64,000 nucleotides of DNA from positions 62,001 to 126,000 of the forward strand of contig PHCB01000001.1 in NCBI GenBank assembly GCA_002842095.1, read 5' to 3'. Below are positions 45,412 to 55,821 of this stretch, one piece after another; position 1 is the first letter of the stretch, and every line of letters begins with the position of its first letter. The notes under the pieces are model-generated. The model searched no databases and was not told the origin of the DNA. It worked only from the letters and a program-made list of their open reading frames with translations. The translations under genes were made by a program, and so were the position numbers. This DNA is from a candidate division BRC1 bacterium HGW-BRC1-1. GTDB lineage: Bacteria > Sumerlaeota > Sumerlaeia > Sumerlaeales > Sumerlaeaceae.

Positions 45412-45858
45412 ATGCCATCAACCTACCTCAGCCTCCATTACCACATCGTTTTCTCCACGAAACACCGCGACCCCATCATCGCGCCACAATGGCGACCACG
45501 TCTCCACGAATACCTTGGCGGTGCGATTCGCGGACTGGGCGGGATTCCCGAATGCGTGGGCGGCACGGCCGATCACGTCCACATGCTCATCGGTTTGAAG
45601 GCCACCCATTGCATTGCTGACATCATGCGGGAATCGAAAAAGGCCTCCTCAAGCTGGGTGCATGAGGAACTCGGCCTGCACCCGTTCGCCTGGCAAGAGG
45701 GCTACGCCGCTTTCACCGTCAGCGCCACCTCCCGAGACGCGGTGCGGCACTACATTGACCATCAAGACGAGCACCACCGGATAAAATCCTTCCGCGAAGA
45801 ATTGATCGAGATGCTCGATAAAGCCGGCGTCAAATATGATCCGAAATATCTGGATTGA
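45412..45858 (+). mobile_element. IS200/IS605-type Y1 transposase TnpA
   Basis: 148 residues, the normal length. Y1_Tnp fold: LSLHYHIVFSTKHRDPIIAP at the start, HUH motif GTADHVHMLIGL near residue 62 (metal-binding His-Val-His), and the tyrosine helix AVRHYIDHQDEHHRIKSFRE near 120, where Tyr makes the covalent DNA link. It should cut and join single-stranded DNA at hairpins. All key residues are present, so probably active. It stands immediately downstream of the GGA-loop palindrome array, which is its likely substrate. No tnpB or other IS605 cargo is nearby. Confidence 0.92.
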
Positions 45859-46183: not shown

Positions 46184-47812
46184 ATGCCCCCAGCCTCCGG
46201 TAAATCACTCGAAACCTGGATTTGGGATGCCGCCTGTTCCATCCGCGGCGCGAAGGATGCGCCCAAGTACAAGGAGTTCATCCTCCCGCTCATCTTCGCC
46301 AAGCGCCTCTGCGACGTCTTCGACGACGAACTGAACCGCATCGCGAAGGAAGTCGGCTCGCGCGCCAAGGCATTCAAGCTCGTGAAGCACGACAAGAAAC
46401 TCGTCCGCTTTTACCTGCCCCTCGAACCCGGAAACCCCGACGACCCGGTGTGGTCCGTCATCCGCACGCTCTCCGACAAGATCGGCGAGCAGCTCACCAC
46501 CCACATGCGGGCCATCGCCCGGGAAAACCCACTCCTGCAGGGCATCATCGACCGCGTCGACTTCAACGCCACCACCCACGGCCAGCGCGACCTCGACGAC
46601 GACCGCCTCTCCAACCTCATCGAGGCCGTCAGCGCCAAGCGGCTCGGACTCACCGACGTGGAGGCCGACATCATTGGCAAGAGTTACGAATACCTCATCC
46701 GGAAGTTCGCCGAAGGCAGCGGCTCAAGTGCCGGCGAGTTCTACACCCCGCCCGAGGTTGGCACCATCATGTCCCGCGTCCTCCAGCCCGAGCCCGGCAT
46801 GGAAATCTACGACCCCACCTGCGGCTCCGCCGGCCTCCTCGTAAAGTGCGAAATAGCCATGGAAGAACGAAGCCAAAAGGAGAACAAACAAAAGGAGAAC
46901 GGACTTTCCAGTCCGTTGCCTTCAAACAAGAGCGGGTTGGAAAACCCGCACCCCCTTGCGCACCCCTTTGCCCCCCTCAAGCTGTTCGGCCAGGAGTACA
47001 CCCCCGAGACCTGGGCCATGGCCAACATGAACATGATCATCCACGACATGGAGGGCCAGATCGAAATCGGCGACACTTTCAAGAACCCCAAGTTCCGCAA
47101 CAAGGCGGGCAAACTCCGCACCTTCGACCGTGTCGTCGCCAACCCCATGTGGAACCAGAAGTGGTTCACCGAGGCTGACTACGACAACGACGAACTCGAC
47201 CGCTTCCCCGCCGGGGCGGGCTTCCCCGGCGAATCCTCCGCCGACTGGGGCTGGGTCCAGCACATGCACGCCAGCCTCAATACCACCGGCCGCGCCGCCG
47301 TCGTCCTCGACACCGGCGCCGCCTCCCGCGGCTCGGGCAATGCCGGCACCAACAAGGAAAAGACCATCCGCCAGTGGTTCGTCGATCACGACCTCATCGA
47401 GAGCGTCCTCTATCTGCCCGAAAACCTCTTCTACAACACCTCGGCCCCGGGCATCGTCCTCTTCCTCAACAAGGCCAAGCCCAAGGCGCGCCAGGGCAGG
47501 GTCTTCCTCGTCAACGCCAGCCAGGTCTTCGAAAAAGGCGACCCCAAGAACTTCATCCCCGACGCAGGCATCCAGCGCATCGCCGACACCCTCATCGGCT
47601 GGAAGGAGGAGGACAAGCTCAGCCGCATCGTGGACCACGCCGAACTCAAGAAGAACGACTACAACATCTCCCCCAGCCGCTACATCCACACCAGCGACGC
47701 AGAAACCTACCGGCCCATCGCCGAGATCGTCGAGGAACTGAAGGCCATCGAAGCCGAGGCGCGGCAGACCGACAAGGCATTGAAGGAGATTCTGGAGAAG
47801 ATTGGGTTATGA
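46184..47812 (+). CDS. hsdM: Type I restriction-modification N6-adenine methyltransferase HsdM
   Basis: 542 residues. N-terminal HsdM_N helices (LETWIWDAACSIRGAKDAPKYKEFILPLIF). Methylase domain from ~170: SAGEFYTPPEVGTIMSRV, SAM site MEIYDPTCGSAGLLVKCEIA, and catalytic motif IV FDRVVANPMWNQKW (NPMW in place of NPPF, as in several type I HsdMs). APGIVLFLNKAK follows. Between ~225 and 260, where relatives go straight on to APLxLxGQE, there is an extra Lys/Pro/Ser-rich segment; it coincides with two palindromes at 46898-46949 read in frame. With HsdS it methylates adenine in the target site. First gene of a six-gene defence unit. Confidence 0.93.
   Translation: MPPASGKSLETWIWDAACSIRGAKDAPKYKEFILPLIFAKRLCDVFDDELNRIAKEVGSRAKAFKLVKHDKKLVRFYLPLEPGNPDDPVWSVIRTLSDKIGEQLTTHMRAIARENPLLQGIIDRVDFNATTHGQRDLDDDRLSNLIEAVSAKRLGLTDVEADIIGKSYEYLIRKFAEGSGSSAGEFYTPPEVGTIMSRVLQPEPGMEIYDPTCGSAGLLVKCEIAMEERSQKENKQKENGLSSPLPSNKSGLENPHPLAHPFAPLKLFGQEYTPETWAMANMNMIIHDMEGQIEIGDTFKNPKFRNKAGKLRTFDRVVANPMWNQKWFTEADYDNDELDRFPAGAGFPGESSADWGWVQHMHASLNTTGRAAVVLDTGAASRGSGNAGTNKEKTIRQWFVDHDLIESVLYLPENLFYNTSAPGIVLFLNKAKPKARQGRVFLVNASQVFEKGDPKNFIPDAGIQRIADTLIGWKEEDKLSRIVDHAELKKNDYNISPSRYIHTSDAETYRPIAEIVEELKAIEAEARQTDKALKEILEKIGL
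46898..46949. repeat. Palindrome pair (TTCC and GGAA loops) read in frame inside hsdM
   Basis: 46898-46917: AACGGACT-TTCC-AGTCCGTT, perfect 8-bp stem. 46932-46949: GCGGGTT-GGAA-AACCCGC, perfect 7-bp stem, which is the same hairpin type in reverse orientation. AAAGGAGA precedes the first, as at the copies in hsdR. The insert adds about 35 codons without breaking the frame. Confidence 0.88.
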
Positions 47813-49065
47813 TCGGCAGGCAATTAGGATATGCTGCTTTACTCCCTGCCGAATGGGAGGTTACGTCTGTTGGCGAAATTGGCACTTACCTCAATGGTTA
47901 CGCGTTTAAACCAGAGCAGTGGGGCGCCAATGGCGATCCAATTATCCGCATTCAAAACCTGAACGATCGCAACAAACCCTTCAACTACTTCGATGGGGAG
48001 GTCCCCGACAAGTATCGAATCCGCAATGGCGACATTCTTGTATCGTGGTCGGCTTCTTTGGGAACCTTCAGGTGGGACCGGGGTGATGCGTGGCTAAACC
48101 AACACATTTTCAAAGCCTCCCCCAATCTCTCGTCAGTGACGGACGAGTTCTTCTACTGGGTCATGGTCCACGGAATCGAGCGGATCGCAGAAAATGCAAG
48201 GGGAAGCACGATGAAGCACGTCACCGGAAAGGAGTTCAACAACTCCGAGGTGGCAATCCCCCCGCTCCTCGAGCAGAAGAAGATCGCGCACATCCTTTCG
48301 ACGGTGCAGCAGGCGATCGAAGCGCAGGAGCGGATCATCCAGACCACCACCGAACTGAAAAAGGCCCTCATGCACAAACTCTTCACCCAAGGCCTCCGCA
48401 ACGAACCCCAAAAACAAACCGAAATCGGCCCCATCCCCCAAAGCTGGGAGGTGCTTGCTCTGAGTGAGATTGCCGAGTCGTTCCAATACGGCACATCGGT
48501 AAAATGTGCCTACGACGTAAAAGGGAAGGCCGTCTTGCGGATTCCCAATGTTGTCGGAGGTGCTGTCGACATCAGCGACCTCAAGTTCGGCAAGCCAAAG
48601 TCTAGTGAGATCACCAATCTCAGACTTCAGTCGGGCGACTTACTCTTCGTGAGGACGAACGGAGTCCAAGAGAATGCAGGCCGCTGCTCATTGTTCGAGA
48701 ACGAGATCGTAGACTGTTACTTCGCATCGTATCTGATCCGTGTCCGCCTTGATTCGCACACGTTGAATCCATCGTTTCTGAACGAATACAGCCGAACCGA
48801 AACCGGAACCTCGTTCCTAAGCGGCAAAGCCATCCGCACCGCAGACGGCAAGTTCAACATCAATTCCGGAACACTGAAGACAATGCTCGTTCCAGTGCCC
48901 GGCATTGAGGAGCAAGAGGAAATCGCAACCATGCTGTCCCTCATTGACACCAAATCATCCAGCGCACGGGCCAAGCTGTCAGCGCTCCAAGACCTCTTCC
49001 GCACCCTCCTTCACGAACTGATGACCGCGAAGACCCGCGTTCACGAACTGGAGATTTCCGCATGA
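47809..49065 (+). CDS. hsdS: Type I restriction-modification specificity subunit HsdS
   Basis: 418 residues with two target-recognition domains. TRD1 (about 13-150) begins PAEWEVTSVGEIGTYLNGYA; central conserved coiled coil LEQKKIAHILSTVQQAIEAQ, near 157-185; TRD2 begins IPQSWEVLALSEIAESFQYG; C-terminal coiled coil IEEQEEIATMLSLIDTKSSS. It fixes the bipartite DNA sequence read by the HsdM/HsdR complex; the target cannot be read from this. The start overlaps the hsdM stop by 4 bp (ATGA). The thsA start overlaps its own stop by 4 bp, a coupling seldom seen between an RM gene and a Thoeris gene. Confidence 0.93.
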   Translation: MIGRQLGYAALLPAEWEVTSVGEIGTYLNGYAFKPEQWGANGDPIIRIQNLNDRNKPFNYFDGEVPDKYRIRNGDILVSWSASLGTFRWDRGDAWLNQHIFKASPNLSSVTDEFFYWVMVHGIERIAENARGSTMKHVTGKEFNNSEVAIPPLLEQKKIAHILSTVQQAIEAQERIIQTTTELKKALMHKLFTQGLRNEPQKQTEIGPIPQSWEVLALSEIAESFQYGTSVKCAYDVKGKAVLRIPNVVGGAVDISDLKFGKPKSSEITNLRLQSGDLLFVRTNGVQENAGRCSLFENEIVDCYFASYLIRVRLDSHTLNPSFLNEYSRTETGTSFLSGKAIRTADGKFNINSGTLKTMLVPVPGIEEQEEIATMLSLIDTKSSSARAKLSALQDLFRTLLHELMTAKTRVHELEISA

Positions 49066-50513
49066 GCACCGAAGCCATTTCAGAAGAGCAATTCCTACGC
49101 GAGTTCACCAAAGAACTTCATAGTCGGAACGCTGCGGCATTCATTGGGGCTGGCTTCTCGATGTCTGCGGGATACGTCGACTGGCAGGAGCTTCTGAAAG
49201 GCGTTGTCACCGACCTCGGTCTCGACCCAAAAAAGGAACACGACCTAGTCAGCGTGGCACAGTATTCGGTGAACAAGGCGGGTGGAAACAGGAATGGATT
49301 AACCCGGACGATTCTTCACAACATTGGGATCGCGAAGAAGCCAACCAAGGGCCACCGAATTCTCGCGGATCTCCCGATACACACGTTCTGGACGACCAAT
49401 TACGACAAGCTGATCGAAACGAGCCTCGAAGACGCCAGGAAGATTCCGGATGTTAAGCACACTCTCGACCATCTCTCGACGACCCGGCCCGAGCGTGACA
49501 TCATCGTCTACAAAATGCACGGGGACGTTGGTGATCCCACAAACGCGGTCATCTGCAAGGACGACTACGAGCGGTACCCCTTCAAGATGGGGCAGTTCGC
49601 TTCGCTCCTCAAAGGCGACCTCATCGAGAAGACCTTTCTGTTCCTTGGCTTCAGCTTCACCGACCCAAATATCGACTTCATCCTGAGCCGGGTGCGTGCG
49701 GTTCTGGAAGAAAACCAGCGAGAGCACTATTGCATCCAAAAGAAGATCACGAAATGGAAGAATGAGAAGAAGAAGGATTTCGAGTATCGCCAACTGAAGC
49801 AGGATTATTTCATCCGGGACCTGAAGCGGAAGAACATCCAAACCGTCGAAGTGGATACGTACGACGATATTCCTCTCCTGCTTGAGAAGGTCGCCACACG
49901 CTTCAAGCGCTCTTCAATTTTCTTTTCCGGCGCAGCCGCGGAATTTGCTGCATGGAAGCCGAACGAAGTTGACTCCTTTCTCTACGGTCTCGGTGCATCG
50001 CTTTCAGCGGAGAAGAATCGAATCATCACCGGCGCTGGAATCGGAATTGGAGGTGCAGTCATTAGTGGCGCGCTGGACCATCTCGAAAAAGAAGAAATCG
50101 CGATCTCGGAAAAACACCTCATGATGCGTCCATTCCCGCACATGGCGTCCGGGAAATCCGCCTCGAAGGTGAAGCGGACGGCCTACCGCAGATCGATGAT
50201 CGAACACGCAGGGATTGCGGTTTTCGTCTTCGGAAACAAGAGGGATGGTTCCGGCAGGACCATCGAGTCGGACGGCATGAGGGAGGAGTTCGAGTTGTGC
50301 ATCGCGTCGGGCGTTGTCCCGGTGCCAGTCGGAGCAACCGGCTACATGGCTGAAACGCTTTGGAAAGAAGTCTACGAGCGCTTCGATGACTTCTTCCCCA
50401 AGGCGAGCGCCTCAGTCCGCAAGAGCTTTAAGGCAATTGGCAACAGTTCTACAACCCCGTCGAACTTAAGGGATGAACTTCTGAAGATCATTCACCATCT
50501 ACAAGAGGGCTAA
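49062..50513 (+). CDS. thsA: Thoeris anti-phage effector ThsA (SIR2-SLOG)
   Basis: 483 residues, close to the usual length of ThsA. SIR2 NADase domain at ~10-285: AAAFIGAGFSMSAGY, WTTNYDKLIE with Asn113, and YKMHGDVGDP with His153; these match the Asn/His pair essential for NADase activity in characterised ThsA. SLOG sensor domain at ~300-475: IITGAGIGIGGAVISGALDH, AVFVFGNKRDGSGRTIES, and EFELCIASGVVPVPVGATGY. On infection, ThsB makes a cyclic ADP-ribose isomer that binds SLOG and turns on NAD+ breakdown, stopping phage growth. It lies between hsdS and thsB, and its ATG overlaps the hsdS stop (ATGA). Confidence 0.9.
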   Translation: MSTEAISEEQFLREFTKELHSRNAAAFIGAGFSMSAGYVDWQELLKGVVTDLGLDPKKEHDLVSVAQYSVNKAGGNRNGLTRTILHNIGIAKKPTKGHRILADLPIHTFWTTNYDKLIETSLEDARKIPDVKHTLDHLSTTRPERDIIVYKMHGDVGDPTNAVICKDDYERYPFKMGQFASLLKGDLIEKTFLFLGFSFTDPNIDFILSRVRAVLEENQREHYCIQKKITKWKNEKKKDFEYRQLKQDYFIRDLKRKNIQTVEVDTYDDIPLLLEKVATRFKRSSIFFSGAAAEFAAWKPNEVDSFLYGLGASLSAEKNRIITGAGIGIGGAVISGALDHLEKEEIAISEKHLMMRPFPHMASGKSASKVKRTAYRRSMIEHAGIAVFVFGNKRDGSGRTIESDGMREEFELCIASGVVPVPVGATGYMAETLWKEVYERFDDFFPKASASVRKSFKAIGNSSTTPSNLRDELLKIIHHLQEG

Positions 50514-50515
50514 AC

Positions 50516-50614
50516 ATGGCAATCCGGCAAAGCGATATCGTCCCGTACAGAGCCCAAGCCTCAAAAAGAATGTCATCGAAGCTCGTCAAGGAGGCAAAGG
50601 CGACTAAGAAGTAA
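50516..50614 (+). CDS. Possible small basic peptide gene after thsA
   Basis: 32 residues, starting 2 bp after the thsA stop and ending in a Lys-rich tail (KEAKATKK). No strong ribosome-binding site, so translation would depend on re-initiation from thsA. It is followed by ~170 bp without recognisable genes before thsB. It may be chance, a leader peptide, or the remnant of a gene. Low confidence. Confidence 0.25.
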   Translation: MAIRQSDIVPYRAQASKRMSSKLVKEAKATKK

Positions 50615-50784
50615 ACGGCGTTTCTTTCGCATAGTCACAAAGATTCGTATCTCGCCAGAAGCCTTCCAAACCCAAGGGTGGGAGATTTGCATTGAGGGAT
50701 TTGATGCTTTCAAGCCAAACTAGTCAGGCATCAAGGACGTCGACCTCACAGCCAGAGGACCAAACTACAAGCAAAGGAGATACC

Positions 50785-51276
50785 ATGGCACGCAGAGTTT
50801 TCTACAGCTTCCACTACGAGCCCGACAATTGGAGGGCGTCAAAGATTCGGAATATTGGAGCAATTGAAGGCAACCAACCTGCCACCGACAATGATTGGGA
50901 GACGGTTACGGATCGGGGTGATGCTGCGATTGAGAAATGGATTAAAGATCAGATGGCAAGCCGCTCGTGTGCGGTGGTCTTGATCGGGCAAAACACCGCC
51001 GGACGAAAGTGGATTAAACACGAGATCCGTGAAGCTTGGAATGGAGGAATGGGCCTTCTCGGAATTCATATCCACAATATTACGAACAGCTCAGACGAAC
51101 AATCTGATATGGGAACGAATCCATTCTCCGAATTCAAGATTGGAGACAAGTCCCTTTCCTCAATTGTTAAGGTCTATGACCCGCCGTTTTCAAGGAGCAG
51201 CATCGTCTATAATTACATCGCCGATAACATTGCTGATTGGATCGACGAAGCGATCGAGATTCGCAAGAAATACTGA
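50785..51276 (+). CDS. thsB: Thoeris TIR-domain protein ThsB
   Basis: 163 residues. The ATG at 50785 has AAAGGAG 6 bp upstream. RVFYSFHYEPDNWRASKIRN is the defining N-terminal strand and loop of the ThsB/DUF1863 TIR family. The probable catalytic Glu is E80 in GRKWIKHEIREAW, the usual place of the TIR Glu. FSRSSIVYNYIADNIADWID ends the fold. ThsB recognises infection and converts NAD+ to the signal that activates ThsA. It follows thsA by 271 bp and precedes the duplicated 5' end of hsdR by 9 bp. Confidence 0.9.
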   Translation: MARRVFYSFHYEPDNWRASKIRNIGAIEGNQPATDNDWETVTDRGDAAIEKWIKDQMASRSCAVVLIGQNTAGRKWIKHEIREAWNGGMGLLGIHIHNITNSSDEQSDMGTNPFSEFKIGDKSLSSIVKVYDPPFSRSSIVYNYIADNIADWIDEAIEIRKKY

Positions 51277-51285
51277 CTTGAGACC

Positions 51286-51459
51286 ATGCCCACACCCGGA
51301 GAACACAAAACCGTCCAAGCCCGGATCCTCGCATACGCCGAGGCAATCGGTTGGACGGTTTTGTCCCGCGAGGAAGCCAACAAAAGGAGAGCGGGTTTTC
51401 CAACCCGCTGTTTGGGGAATGGCGGACAGGAATGTCCGCGCCCCCTTTTCTTAAAATAG
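51286..51459 (+). pseudogene. First duplicated copy of the hsdR 5' end (57-residue stub)
   Basis: Begins MPTPGEHKTVQARILAYAEA and carries the HsdR N-terminus through SREEANKRR, then runs into a palindrome pair (51390-51409 and 51422-51439) and ends LFLK-stop. Intact relatives continue straight into SLFFDEL. The stop is 2 bp before the next copy's ATG, so ribosomes could re-initiate from one copy to the next. Stub function unlikely; presumed by-product of repeat insertion. Confidence 0.8.
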
Positions 51460-51461
51460 CC

Positions 51462-51635
51462 ATGCCCACACCCGAAGAACATAAAACCGTCCAGGCCCGC
51501 ATCCTCGCATACGCCGAGGCGATCGGCTGGACGATTGTGTCTCGCGAGGCAGCCGAAAAAAGGAGAGCGGGTTTTCCAACCCGCTGTTTGGGGAATGGCG
51601 GACAGGAATGTCCGCGCCCCCTTTTCTTAAAATAG
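51462..51635 (+). pseudogene. Second duplicated copy of the hsdR 5' end (57-residue stub)
   Basis: Begins MPTPEEHKTVQARILAYAEA and continues to SREAAEKRR, then the same palindrome element (51566-51585, 51598-51615) and a stop at 51633-51635, 2 bp before the true hsdR ATG. Its coding part is closer to the third (functional) copy than the first copy is. Confidence 0.8.
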
Positions 51636-51637
51636 CC

Positions 51638-54600
51638 ATGCCCACACCCTCCGAACATAAAACCGTCCAGGCCCGCATCCTCGCATACGCCGAGGCGATC
51701 GGTTGGACAGTTGTGTCCCGCGAGGCGGCCGACAAAAGGCGAGGGGGCATTCTTGCCCCCCGGCATTCGGGCCAATATGGAGGACACGGTGGACAAGAAA
51801 GTCCCCCCTCCCTTTTCTTTGATGAGTTGGTTGAGGCCAAGGTGCGGGAATTTAACCCGCGCTACGCCGAGGCCGAGGGGGCGTTGCTCTGGCAGTTTCG
51901 CCTCATCCACACCGACATCTACGGCAACCGTGATTTCCTCGAACACCTGCGCAACCGGGGCAAGTTCTTAGACCACGAGGAGAAGCGTGAGCGCGACCTG
52001 ATCCTGATCGATTACGACGACCCGACGCGCAACGTGTACGAGGTCACCGAGGAGTGGGCATTTCACAACGGCTTCCATGGCACGCGCGAGGACGTTGTCT
52101 TTCTCATCAACGGCATCCCGGTGCTGATGATCGAGTGCAAGAATGCGACCAAGGGCGAGGCGATCGCGCTGGGGATTGACCAGATACGCCGCTACCACTC
52201 GGAAACCCCCGAAGTGATGACGCCGGAGATGCTCTTCATCGCGACGGAAGCCATCGGCTTTGCCTACGGCGTGACCTGGAACACCGTCCGCCGAAACATT
52301 TTCAACTGGAAAGGAGAACCAAACCCAAACACGGGGAAAGGAGAACGGGTTTTCCAACCCGTTGAACCAAACCCAAACGGGGGAAAAGGAGAACGGGTTT
52401 TCCAACCCGTTGAACCAAACCCAAACGCGGGAAAAGGAGAACGGGTTTTCCAACCTGTTGAACCGAACCCAAACACGGGGAATGGAGAACAGGTTTTCCA
52501 ACCCGTTGAACCGAACCCAAACGGGGATTCTAACACGGGCAGGAATGCCCATGCTCCTTTTTACTCGCCGGACGTTGAAACCGACAAGCACCGGCGCAAC
52601 CTCCCCCATTGGCAACAGGGAGAAGCTTGGATATCCGTAACCTGGCGGCTGGGCGACTCACTTCCCAAGGCGAAACTCGACCAGTGGAAGGCGGAACGTG
52701 CGGCCTGGCTGTCCCATCATCCCGAGCCCTGGGACGAGAACACCGAGGCCGAATATCACAAACGTTTCTCTGAGCAGATCGATGAGTGGTTGGATCAGGG
52801 CAGCGGTTCGTGTGTGCTGAAGGACCCTGCGAACTCGAAGATTGTGGCGGATGCTCTGCGGCATTTTGATGGGGAGCGGGTTGAGCTGGCGTCGTTCGTG
52901 GTCATGCCGAATCACGTGCATGTTTTGTTTCGTCCGATCGGCGGGCACGAGCTGGAAAATGTTTTGAAATCGTGGAAGGGATTCACGGCGCGGGAGATCA
53001 ACAAGCGACTCGGCAAGACCGGGGCGCTTTGGCAGGATGAATATTGGGACCGGCTGATCCGGAGTGAACAGCACTTCTTCAAGTCAGCAGAGTATATCCA
53101 AGAGAACCCCTCGAAAGCGCAGTTGCACGAAGGACAGTTCGTCTTGTGGGAGAGCGGGTTTTCCAACCCGCCGAAGTGTCCCCCCTCCGTTCCGGGTCGC
53201 CTCGAAGACAAGGTGAAAAGCTTCTGCGACCCAGCCCACGTGCTGCGGTTGCTCAAGGACTTCATCCTCTTCGCCGAGAAGGAGGAGGAACTCCAGAAGT
53301 TCATCCTGCGCCAGCATCAGGCGACGGCGGTGGACCGCGTGGTGGAACGCGCGCTGGACCCCACACGGACGCGGGGGCTGGTCTGGCACACGCAGGGCAG
53401 CGGCAAGACCTACACGATGATCAAAGCGGCCGAGTTGATGTTCAAGGCAAACGAGGCGCAGAAGCCCACGATCCTGTTGATGATTGACCGCAACGAACTG
53501 GAAGACCAGATGCTCAAGAATCTGGCGTCGGTCGGGTTGGCGAATGTGGCCCACGCGGACCGCATTACGACGTTGAACAGCCTGCTTGATGAGCGTGGGC
53601 AGGATTACCGCGGCATCATCGTGACGATGATCCACAAGTTCCGCGATATGCCGGCTGACCTGAACACACGAAAGAACATCTTCGTGCTGATTGACGAGGC
53701 GCACCGCACGACTGGCGGCGACCTGGGCAATTTCCTGATGGCGGGCCTGCCGAACGCAACGTTCATCGGGTTCACGGGCACGCCGGTGGACCTGACGGCT
53801 TACGGCAAGGGGACCTTCAAGACCTTCGGCTGCGAGGACGACAAGGGATACCTGCACAAATACTCCATCGCCGAGAGCATCGAAGATGGCACGACGCTGC
53901 CGCTTTACTATAACCTCGCGCCCAACGAAATGCTGGTGCCGCTCGAGATCATGGAGAAGGAATTCCTTGCGCTGGCCGAGACCGAAGGCATCTCGGACAT
54001 TGAGGAACTGAACAAGATTCTCGAGCGCGCGGTGAACCTGAAAAACTTCCTCAAGGGGAAGGATCGGGTTAACAAGGTGGCGCGATATGTGGCCGACCAT
54101 TTCCTCCAGAATGTCGAGCCGCTGGGCTACAAGGCGTTCCTGGTGGCGGTAGACCGCGAGGCGTGTGCCTTCTACAAGGAAGCGCTGGACGCCATCCTGC
54201 CGCCCGAGTATTCGGAGATCGTCTTTACCGGCAACAACAACGACGAGCCCCACCTGAAGAAGTGGCATCTCGACCCGAAGAAGGAGAAGCAGATCCGCAA
54301 GAGCTTCACCAAGCCGGGTGAGTGGCCGAAGATTCTGATCGTCACAGAAAAGCTGCTGACGGGCTTTGATGCGCCGATCCTCTACGCCATGTATCTCGAC
54401 AAGCCGATGCGCGACCACACGCTGCTGCAAGCCATCGCGCGCGTGAATCGCCCCTATGAGAACGAGGCGGCGGAGATGGTGAAGCCCCACGGGTTCGTCC
54501 TGGATTTCGTGGGCATCTTCGACAAGCTGGAGAAGGCGCTCGCATTCGACAGCGACGAGGTCAATGCCATCGTCAAGGATCTGGCTCTGCTCAAGCATCT

Positions 54601-55459
54601 GTTCAAAGCAAAGATGGAGACCAAGGCGCCGCCGTACCTGGCGCTGGTGACGGGCAATTTCAACGACAAGGACGTGGACAACCTTATCGAGCAATTCCGC
54701 GACAAGGAGCGGCGCAAGGAGTTCTTCAGGGAATACAAGGAGATCGAGATGCTCTACGAGATCATCTCACCCGACGCATTCCTGCGTCCGTTCATCGATA
54801 ATTACACGACGCTGTCGTCGATCTATGCCGTTGTTCAGAACGCCTATGCGAAGAGGGTTTATGTCGACCGGGCGTTCCAGAAGAAGACGAACGAGCTCGT
54901 GCAAAAGCACATCGGCGCGGACCAGTTGGAACGCGTGACCGAATTCGTGAAAATCGATGCCGACACGATTGAGCTCATCAAAGAGCAGCAGGGCGGCTAC
55001 GGGACGAAGATCATCAATCTCGTCAAGAGCATCGAAAAAGCTGCGGAGGAAGAGAGCGGTGATCCGTTCCTCATTGCGCTGTCCGACCGGGCAATGGCCG
55101 TGCAGGAGAATTTTGAGGAGCGGCAGAGCAGCACGGAGGAAGCGCTTGCGCAGTTGTTCACGGAAATAGAGAGGAACGAGCAGCGCAAGAAGGACCAGGC
55201 CGCCAAGGGCTTGGATGACCTGACTTATTTCGTGCTGTGCAAGCTCACCGAGGACGGCATCCCCAGTGCGAACCTGGCCAGCAAGAAGGTGGGCGAGGCA
55301 TTCACACAATTCTCGAATTGGCGGCGGAGCGAGGCCGAACTGCGCGAACTGCGCAATAAGGTGACCTTCGCGATCTTCGAGGTGGAGGACGACATGGCCA
55401 AGGTCTCGGCGACTGTTGAGGCGTTGTTCGTGCTCCTTGAGAGGAGTTACCGCCAATGA
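51638..55459 (+). CDS. hsdR: Type I restriction endonuclease HsdR with in-frame RAYT transposase domain
   Basis: 1273 residues. Residues ~1-225: HSDR_N nuclease, with REDVVFLINGIPVLMIECKN giving the D...E-x-K site (E166, K168), and GVTWNTVRRNIFNWK at the end. Residues ~227-520 are foreign: four 16-residue repeats (KGERVFQPVEPNPN), then a REP-associated tyrosine transposase domain (~312-505, HUH at VVMPNHVHVLF), then a palindrome-coded linker. Residues ~525 on resume HsdR: Walker A VWHTQGSGKTYTMI (K590), DEAH VLIDEAHRTTGG (D686), helicase C domain with ILIVTEKLLTGFDAPILYAM, and the C-terminal helical region. Without the insert it would be ~980 residues, the normal length. ATP-driven translocation and cleavage motifs are intact, so it may still be active. 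It overlaps the DUF45 gene by 4 bp. Confidence 0.93.
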   Translation: MPTPSEHKTVQARILAYAEAIGWTVVSREAADKRRGGILAPRHSGQYGGHGGQESPPSLFFDELVEAKVREFNPRYAEAEGALLWQFRLIHTDIYGNRDFLEHLRNRGKFLDHEEKRERDLILIDYDDPTRNVYEVTEEWAFHNGFHGTREDVVFLINGIPVLMIECKNATKGEAIALGIDQIRRYHSETPEVMTPEMLFIATEAIGFAYGVTWNTVRRNIFNWKGEPNPNTGKGERVFQPVEPNPNGGKGERVFQPVEPNPNAGKGERVFQPVEPNPNTGNGEQVFQPVEPNPNGDSNTGRNAHAPFYSPDVETDKHRRNLPHWQQGEAWISVTWRLGDSLPKAKLDQWKAERAAWLSHHPEPWDENTEAEYHKRFSEQIDEWLDQGSGSCVLKDPANSKIVADALRHFDGERVELASFVVMPNHVHVLFRPIGGHELENVLKSWKGFTAREINKRLGKTGALWQDEYWDRLIRSEQHFFKSAEYIQENPSKAQLHEGQFVLWESGFSNPPKCPPSVPGRLEDKVKSFCDPAHVLRLLKDFILFAEKEEELQKFILRQHQATAVDRVVERALDPTRTRGLVWHTQGSGKTYTMIKAAELMFKANEAQKPTILLMIDRNELEDQMLKNLASVGLANVAHADRITTLNSLLDERGQDYRGIIVTMIHKFRDMPADLNTRKNIFVLIDEAHRTTGGDLGNFLMAGLPNATFIGFTGTPVDLTAYGKGTFKTFGCEDDKGYLHKYSIAESIEDGTTLPLYYNLAPNEMLVPLEIMEKEFLALAETEGISDIEELNKILERAVNLKNFLKGKDRVNKVARYVADHFLQNVEPLGYKAFLVAVDREACAFYKEALDAILPPEYSEIVFTGNNNDEPHLKKWHLDPKKEKQIRKSFTKPGEWPKILIVTEKLLTGFDAPILYAMYLDKPMRDHTLLQAIARVNRPYENEAAEMVKPHGFVLDFVGIFDKLEKALAFDSDEVNAIVKDLALLKHLFKAKMETKAPPYLALVTGNFNDKDVDNLIEQFRDKERRKEFFREYKEIEMLYEIISPDAFLRPFIDNYTTLSSIYAVVQNAYAKRVYVDRAFQKKTNELVQKHIGADQLERVTEFVKIDADTIELIKEQQGGYGTKIINLVKSIEKAAEEESGDPFLIALSDRAMAVQENFEERQSSTEEALAQLFTEIERNEQRKKDQAAKGLDDLTYFVLCKLTEDGIPSANLASKKVGEAFTQFSNWRRSEAELRELRNKVTFAIFEVEDDMAKVSATVEALFVLLERSYRQ
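52316..52534 (+). repeat. 48-bp in-frame tandem repeat with TTCC hairpins inside hsdR
   Basis: Four full units (52316-52363, 52364-52411, 52412-52459, 52460-52507) and a partial fifth. Each carries AACGGGTT-TTCC-AACCCGTT or a near variant (stems at 52344, 52392, 52440, 52488) preceded by AAAGGAG or a near variant. The unit is 16 codons, coding for KGERVFQPVEPNPN plus two variable residues. Not CRISPR: there are no unique spacers and the frame is kept throughout. Confidence 0.92.
52537..53171 (+). mobile_element. REP-bracketed RAYT (REP-associated tyrosine transposase) inserted in hsdR
   Basis: The transposase domain at 52571-53150 reads RRNLPHWQQGEAWISVTWRL at its start and ADALRHFDGERVELASFVVM before the HUH site. 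HUH codons His-Val-His are at 52913-52921 (PNHVHVLF). WQDEYWDRLIRSEQHFFKSA leads to EYIQENPSKAQL, where the catalytic Tyr of RAYTs lies. It is bracketed by an upstream GGGCA-GGAA-TGCCC hairpin (52537-52550) and a downstream GCGGGTT-TTCC-AACCCGC hairpin (53154-53171) of opposite loop orientation. Both key motifs are intact and it lies in the hsdR frame with no stop. Confidence 0.9.
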
Positions 55460-55821
55460 CCGCATGGCGCGACAAGGACGAGTTCAAGGCCCGCGTCTTG
55501 GAGTGGGCGGACAAGCTGGGCGTGAAGGCGCACTCGTTGTCGGTGCGTCCGATGCGCCGCAAGTGGGCGTCCTGCTCGACAGCGGGCAATCTGAGCTTCA
55601 ACAGCGAACTTCTCGATCTGAATCGCGAGTTGGGCGATTATGTCATCGTCCACGAACTCCTGCACTTCCACGCGCCCAACCACGGCAAGCTGTGGAAAAG
55701 CCTGATGCGTGCGCACCTCGGCGACTATGAGGTTCAAGCCGACAGATTGCCGGTCTTGGGCGAATCCACCACGCCGGGCCAGCCGCCGCCAAAGAAGCAC
55801 CCAAACCGTTCCGCATCATAA
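55456..55821 (+). CDS. DUF45/YgjP-like zinc metallopeptidase
   Basis: 121 residues. HExxH-type zinc motif VIVHELLHFHAPNHGKLW, with the third ligand His in the usual place. SVRPMRRKWASCSTAGNLSF is the DUF45/SprT-like signature. The last ~20 residues are a Pro/Lys/Ser-rich tail. Its ATG overlaps the hsdR stop by 4 bp, so it is translated with the RM operon, an association seen often for this family. Substrate unknown; a role in removing or processing RM subunits is a reasonable guess only. Confidence 0.88.
   Translation: MTAWRDKDEFKARVLEWADKLGVKAHSLSVRPMRRKWASCSTAGNLSFNSELLDLNRELGDYVIVHELLHFHAPNHGKLWKSLMRAHLGDYEVQADRLPVLGESTTPGQPPPKKHPNRSAS

Follow-up and report, generated by a model that had tools for sequence, protein, structure and literature searches.

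The hsdR gene in the 64,000-nucleotide stretch of DNA that we analysed (the window) most likely carries a REP-RAYT-REP element, or REPtron, as a stop-less passenger that is translated in frame within a permissive linker between the nuclease and motor parts of HsdR, a reading to which we assign a probability of roughly 0.78. This reading is built on the open frame of the gene, the intact HUH and tyrosine motifs of the RAYT (REP-associated tyrosine transposase), the REP hairpins, the exact empty linker in relatives and a sister hsdR with a single REP, as well as on the repeated filling of the linker by RAYTs or other repeats and the occurrence of related elements in many unrelated host genes.

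The element resides in a restriction operon of a 3.77 Mb genome assembled in 34 contigs. The main features of the operon and its host gene are as follows:

46184-55821: type I restriction operon with hsdM and hsdS, a SIR2-STALD gene next to a ThsB-type TIR gene, hsdR, and a gene for a YgjP-like protease
46184..47812, + strand: hsdM, with an in-frame inverted REP pair at about 46880-46960
47809..49065, + strand: hsdS, assigned from position and sequence resemblance
49062-51276: SIR2-STALD (ThsA-like) and ThsB TIR genes, which form a Thoeris-like pair inside the operon, after hsdS and before hsdR
51287..51637, + strand: two extra tandem copies of the hsdR 5' end, about 176 bp each, with an inverted REP pair after each
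51638..55459, + strand: hsdR, the host ORF of the element (1273 aa, one uninterrupted frame)
51650..52246, + strand: HSDR_N nuclease domain (residues 5-203; Pfam)
51737-51819: short in-frame repeat insert inside HSDR_N
53315..53980, + strand: SWI2/SNF2 helicase motor domain (residues 560-781; Pfam)

The HsdR protein has the nuclease, motor and T1R_D3 domains and the motifs of a type I restriction subunit. A Pfam scan places HSDR_N at residues 5-203, Y1_Tnp at 413-489, SWI2_SNF2 at 560-781 and T1R_D3 at 884-957, and the nuclease D..ExK motif, the Walker A sequence GSGKT, DEAH, FTGTP and QAIARVNRPY are all intact. The first in-frame ATG lies at 51608, and the start at 51638 agrees with homologues. 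The initial annotation had described a single open frame with a RAYT set between the nuclease and helicase domains; we encountered no interruption across the 1273 residues, and the Pfam order, the HUH and tyrosine motifs and the flanking hairpins bear out the placement. The parts of the element are:

52316..52507, + strand: left REP array, in which a 48-bp unit containing a TTCC-loop hairpin after GGAG occurs four times in tandem, translated in frame
52534..52558, + strand: left inner hairpin GGGCAGGAATGCCC, with a GGAA loop, in opposite orientation
52562..53134, + strand: RAYT domain, with no start or stop codon of its own
52913-52921, + strand: HUH motif of the RAYT (His426/His428, PNHVHVLF)
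53093-53095, + strand: predicted catalytic Tyr486 of the RAYT (EYIQENP)
53149..53195, + strand: right REP, a TTCC-loop hairpin (53149-53175) followed by an inverted REP remnant ending in CCTCC

After the right REP the host frame picks up again at VPGRLE. The hairpins of opposite orientation, GGAA and TTCC, that had been noted around the RAYT were recovered at 52534-52558 and 53149-53175, together with the four-copy TTCC array at 52316-52507, which the initial annotation had left unspecified. The domain scores 32.7-35.2 bits against Pfam Y1_Tnp (cut-off 23) and 73.4-75.7 bits (E 1.7e-20) against the NCBIfam model REP_Tyr_transpos (NF047646), slightly below that model's cut-off of 80, and with phmmer it matches the solved E. 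coli TnpA_REP structure 4er8 (E 0.0024). HUH and the tyrosine in its YIxxNP context are invariant across seven aligned HsdR RAYTs. No in-frame ATG, GTG or TTG precedes the RAYT core before TTG 52790, which itself falls within the domain, so that the RAYT can hardly be produced on its own. The window RAYT is not a separate gene with its own start and stop; it lies between REP hairpins, as in a REPtron, and its palindromic repeats are in frame in a host ORF, as in intragenic REPs and Rickettsia palindromic elements, here with a transposase inside. Sites resembling CGGGTTTTCCAACCCG with up to three mismatches number 9 in the window against 0.97 expected, and with up to two mismatches there are 9 in the whole genome, 6 of them within the hsd operon. 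The GTAG tag is absent from the REP foot, and the hairpins of the window and of the HsdR clade have GGAG/CTCC instead, which may be the counterpart of GTAG in classical REPs. AlphaFold2 models of the RAYT alone (7 sequences, mean pLDDT 52) and of HsdR residues 1-780 (12 sequences, mean pLDDT 38) were too poor for placing the domain.

REPs recur elsewhere in the operon. In hsdM, the spacing from CGSAGLL to GQE is 59 aa in the window versus 32-46 in 34 relatives. The first ~90 bases of hsdR, together with an inverted REP pair, are duplicated twice upstream, giving starts at 51287, 51462 and 51638, and a contig of genome G067 (L181) has an apparent hsdR 5' end, in a different frame, adjoining its RAYT; hsdR 5' ends may travel with REPs. 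A stand-alone IS200-type Y1 transposase gene occupies 45412-45858, just upstream of hsdM, beside repeated CCGGTGGTTGAG...CACCACCGGA palindromes.

Alignment with empty relatives, which the initial annotation had called for, defined what the insert replaces. Among 76 relatives drawn from 80 loci, the linker from FNWK to LEAKVKSFC is exactly 6 residues long (HEEVGK-like) in about 60, from many phyla, and the same linker in the window HsdR spans 296 residues. Inserts of 12-332 aa occupy the linker in 13 HsdRs, the window included, every one a multiple of three and free of stops. The search for further HsdRs with a RAYT, likewise proposed at the outset, returned seven more from several phyla, all with the RAYT in this linker: one from Methylomirabilis (L040), two from Verrucomicrobia (L042, L043), two from Akkermansiaceae (L054, L087), one from Kiritimatiellae (L064) and one from Desulfobacteraceae (L091, in which the contig breaks inside the RAYT). 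Six or seven other HsdRs have short in-frame linker inserts, mostly quite different dispersed repeats, although the 12-aa insert of L056 may be only a length variant. Because unrelated in-frame repeats share the linker, it is a permissive hot spot and not a RAYT-specific site. A second hot spot lies near the HsdR N-terminus, at 51737-51819 in the window, where different in-frame dispersed repeats were seen in several relatives (L039, L040, L049, L054, L092, L094 and L107).

We also surveyed other proteins in the window's phylum (40 genomes) and in the genomes behind the HsdR loci, reading long frames and scanning them with Pfam. The survey started from one RAYT query and hence covers one kind of RAYT, and most of the genomes are metagenome-assembled. 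RAYTs were found in frames longer than 1000 aa, and about 45 embedded cases were examined overall. Hosts with an interior RAYT are:

Leucyl-tRNA synthetase, in two genera (L206, L207)
Valyl-tRNA synthetase (L245)
Alanyl-tRNA synthetase with two RAYTs at different sites (L203, G063:C166); the first reaches the contig end, leaving one host side unseen
PriA, in four genomes at the same site (L247, L252, L255, L262)
Exonuclease VII large subunit, XseA (L242)
MetH (L199)
CCA transferase (L263)
HypF (L251)
B12/radical SAM proteins, at different positions (L248, L249)
Glycosyltransferases (L241, L250)
MVD-like decarboxylase (L254)
Creatininase-like protein (L259)
FAD oxidoreductase (L253)
Further HsdRs (L194, L201, L244)
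EcoEI-type R protein (L196)
SNF2/PLD helicase (L197)
Eco57I, PglX-like, MmeI and ISP methylases (L195, L198, L202, L205, L208, L246, L256, L257, L260)
IspG (L200) and a PFL-like protein (L261), both at contig ends with one host side unseen

Four candidates (L238, L240, L258, L264) were terminal fusions only, and in five others (L204, L239, L243, L265, L271) the long frame was spurious or unrelated to any host gene; none of the nine was counted as interior. In leucyl-tRNA synthetase (LeuRS) the insertion point falls in the editing domain, where the sequence corresponds to residues 286-295 of the T. thermophilus enzyme (1h3n). The RAYT-bearing protein is the sole LeuRS above the family cut-off in G032 and G033 (848 and 847 bits with the pieces joined), genomes that are 85-88% complete and in which a second LeuRS may have been missed; G026, of the same genus as G032, has a LeuRS without the insert.

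To gauge frequency we used 194 Verrucomicrobiota-type genomes minus two that had been reached via HsdR (G062 and G070), leaving 192. At E 1e-15 these yielded 108 RAYT matches, 21 of which lie inside a host ORF (for L261 the far side is off the contig) and 4 more of which are terminal fusions. About one fifth of the RAYTs of this kind in the sample are therefore embedded, and the description of RAYTs as stand-alone genes flanked by REPs, from which the initial annotation had started, proved incomplete. Among the 21 embedded hosts, five are restriction-modification (R-M) genes, and several more encode proteins that work on nucleic acids (PriA in four cases, XseA, CCA transferase, valyl-tRNA synthetase). 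In G062 all six matches at the same threshold are embedded: R-M genes hold five of them and a SNF2/PLD helicase the sixth. The lineage is rare among 148 Thermodesulfobacteriota-type genomes (6 genomes); the strong matches there are the G067 HsdR, an Eco57I methylase (L273) and two DUF1156 proteins (L272, L274) with DNA-methylase-like sequence. A bias towards R-M hosts is suggestive.

Several features set the embedded RAYTs apart from stand-alone ones. A methionine within 45 residues upstream was present in 11 of 39 embedded versus 28 of 31 stand-alone RAYTs, and the frame extends beyond the RAYT domain by a median of 490 aa in the former (n=39) versus 5 aa in the latter (n=31). HUH is retained in 39/39 embedded RAYTs and the tyrosine in 38/39. 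The exception is the RAYT in one PriA (L255, G103:C55), where the catalytic Tyr has become His (QHIEDNP), a change that perhaps marks the onset of decay. The embedded state is clustered on the RAYT tree, requiring 16 changes where shuffling gives 29, and clades made up wholly of embedded copies cross host genes, for example Eco57I/HsdR and radical SAM/HypF. The elements in a radical SAM protein (L249) and in HypF (L251) share DNA across the element only, at 67% over 670 nt, with unrelated flanks; this homology limited to the element is the strongest sign of movement by the stop-less form itself. A plasmid search for the RAYT gave one weak, unrelated match and a phage search none, providing no sign of either as a vehicle.

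In a tree built from the motor part of HsdR the RAYT carriers are scattered, with at least five changes forced by strongly supported branches, and the nearest relative of the window HsdR (L034, 85% identical) has an empty linker. The window HsdR is itself a mosaic: the nuclease half belongs to one clade and the motor half to another, with the switch near the RAYT insert. Its nuclease part is closest to a group with L057 (82%) and L054 (78%), its motor part is closest to that of L034 (85%), whose nuclease part is just 70% identical, and its RAYT is closest to that of L054 (84%). Probably the RAYT and the nuclease half arrived together, and a recombination event close to the element then brought in a different motor half. 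The eight HsdR RAYTs form one lineage on the RAYT tree, compatible with a single origin, and the cases at this one site may mix inheritance, recombination and repeated insertion.

Such a history bears on the possibility of a domesticated fusion, in which HsdR would have taken over the RAYT to nick DNA or recognise REPs in the service of restriction; we regard this as unlikely. Eight HsdRs from several phyla with the RAYT in the identical linker, and the frequency of R-M genes among the hosts, would fit recruitment, as would the conservation of the RAYT at the level of the HsdR domains (L054 versus L064: N part 84%, RAYT 85%, C part 81%) and its low dN/dS (Nei-Gojobori dN 0.10-0.15 versus dS 1.5-2.5, the latter near saturation), although the purifying selection may in part be older than the insertion. 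The distribution among HsdRs is nevertheless patchy, with close sisters empty, the translated flanking REPs differ in sequence, the same linker also holds unrelated dispersed repeats, and elements of the same kind sit in LeuRS, AlaRS, PriA, IspG and others. The recurrence in these other hosts and the scatter on the HsdR tree likewise speak against the HsdR-specific nicking fusion that had been offered as an option.

A DNA-level switch, in which frequent loss or excision of the element between REP direct repeats would toggle HsdR, is in our view quite improbable. Two close sisters make the idea worth weighing: L064 has REP-RAYT-REP and L072 has just one REP, in frame, the product expected if the two end copies recombined, and the window has four tandem 48-bp repeats. 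The L072 state could equally be a pre-insertion or insertion-at-REP state, however, and both genes are in frame, implying no on/off effect. On an evolutionary scale, the comparison of L064 with L072 makes the proposed excision possible.

Splicing of the insert out of protein or RNA is very improbable, even though its in-frame position inside essential proteins resembles that of inteins. Pfam scans of the window HsdR and the other RAYT-carrying hosts contained no intein (Hint) domain, no Cys/Ser...His-Asn splice residues were seen at the HsdR linker ends, there was no Rfam match to a group I or II intron, and the ends are variable and built of translated repeats. Of the earlier term "intein-like", the in-frame lifestyle stands and the splicing falls. 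An assembly chimera or decayed gene, conceivable for a repeat-rich locus in mostly metagenome-assembled genomes, is scarcely credible given a frame open throughout, intact catalytic motifs in both HsdR and RAYT and the reappearance of this arrangement in independent genomes from several phyla, a recurrence that disposes of the artefact the initial annotation had allowed for.

The proposal that HsdR tolerates the RAYT as an in-frame passenger between two of its domains is thus the one our results support. By analogy with known TnpA_REP enzymes, the RAYT would act on single-stranded REP hairpins, and the elements would thereby pass between genes at the DNA level. Insertions would survive only if they preserved the host frame, and stop-less copies would then beget more stop-less copies; R-M genes would serve as vehicles, offering horizontal movement and tolerant linkers, and HsdR would be expected to stay functional. 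A bolder version, possible but on the doubtful side, holds that these are ORF-dwelling transposons: stop-less units that would hop between protein genes, have no expression other than as a domain of a host protein and favour enzymes that open nucleic acids or move along them (HsdR, PriA, XseA, DNA methylases), since the host would carry the transposase to its required single-stranded DNA.

In sharing HUH, a single tyrosine, YIxxNP and REP hairpins, the element resembles RAYT/TnpA_REP proteins and REPtrons (Nunvar 2010, PMC2817692; Quentin 2018, PMC6006769), but those are separate genes, whereas here the RAYT has no start or stop of its own and the tag is GGAG-like instead of GTAG. Unexpectedly long RAYT members were put aside as fusions or annotation errors (Quentin 2018, PMC6006769), and embedding may account for such proteins. 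In-frame intragenic REPs of up to 82 encoded residues have been described, with aminoacyl-tRNA synthetases and repair genes among the hosts and the verrucomicrobium O. terrae the richest in intragenic GTAG REPs (Di Nocera 2013, PMC3733652), and Rickettsia palindromic elements are likewise intragenic in-frame repeats (Ogata 2000/2002, as relayed in PMC10969869 and PMC3733652). Both are short palindromes that, like the REPs of our elements, interrupt many kinds of protein without breaking the frame, tRNA synthetases and DNA repair proteins included, but they encode about 20-82 residues and no enzyme, while here a whole transposase is translated inside the host. A literature search that covered subscription journals thinly brought up no paper in which the transposase unit itself lives in frame; in-frame REPs without a transposase are already known, and the whole RAYT unit in this lifestyle appears to be the new part.

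Like inteins with homing endonucleases, the elements place a mobility enzyme in frame at permissive sites of host proteins, essential ones among them; unlike inteins, they have no splicing domain, and the passenger apparently remains in the mature protein. IStrons combine an IS605-type element with a group I intron. They too place an IS200/IS605-type element in a coding gene with no lasting damage, but no intron RNA was detected in the RAYT element, and tolerance would operate at the protein level. RAYTs are generally regarded as single genes with mostly vertical inheritance; embedding would give them a horizontal route inside R-M genes. The usual assumption for compact genomes is that mobile elements persist between genes or break them, and here complete transposase units persist within reading frames, including those of essential proteins (LeuRS, AlaRS, ValRS, PriA), without evident harm. 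In the embedded RAYTs, nature has in effect run the domain-insertion experiment many times over, and it becomes testable whether a transposase can function as an internal part of a different enzyme.
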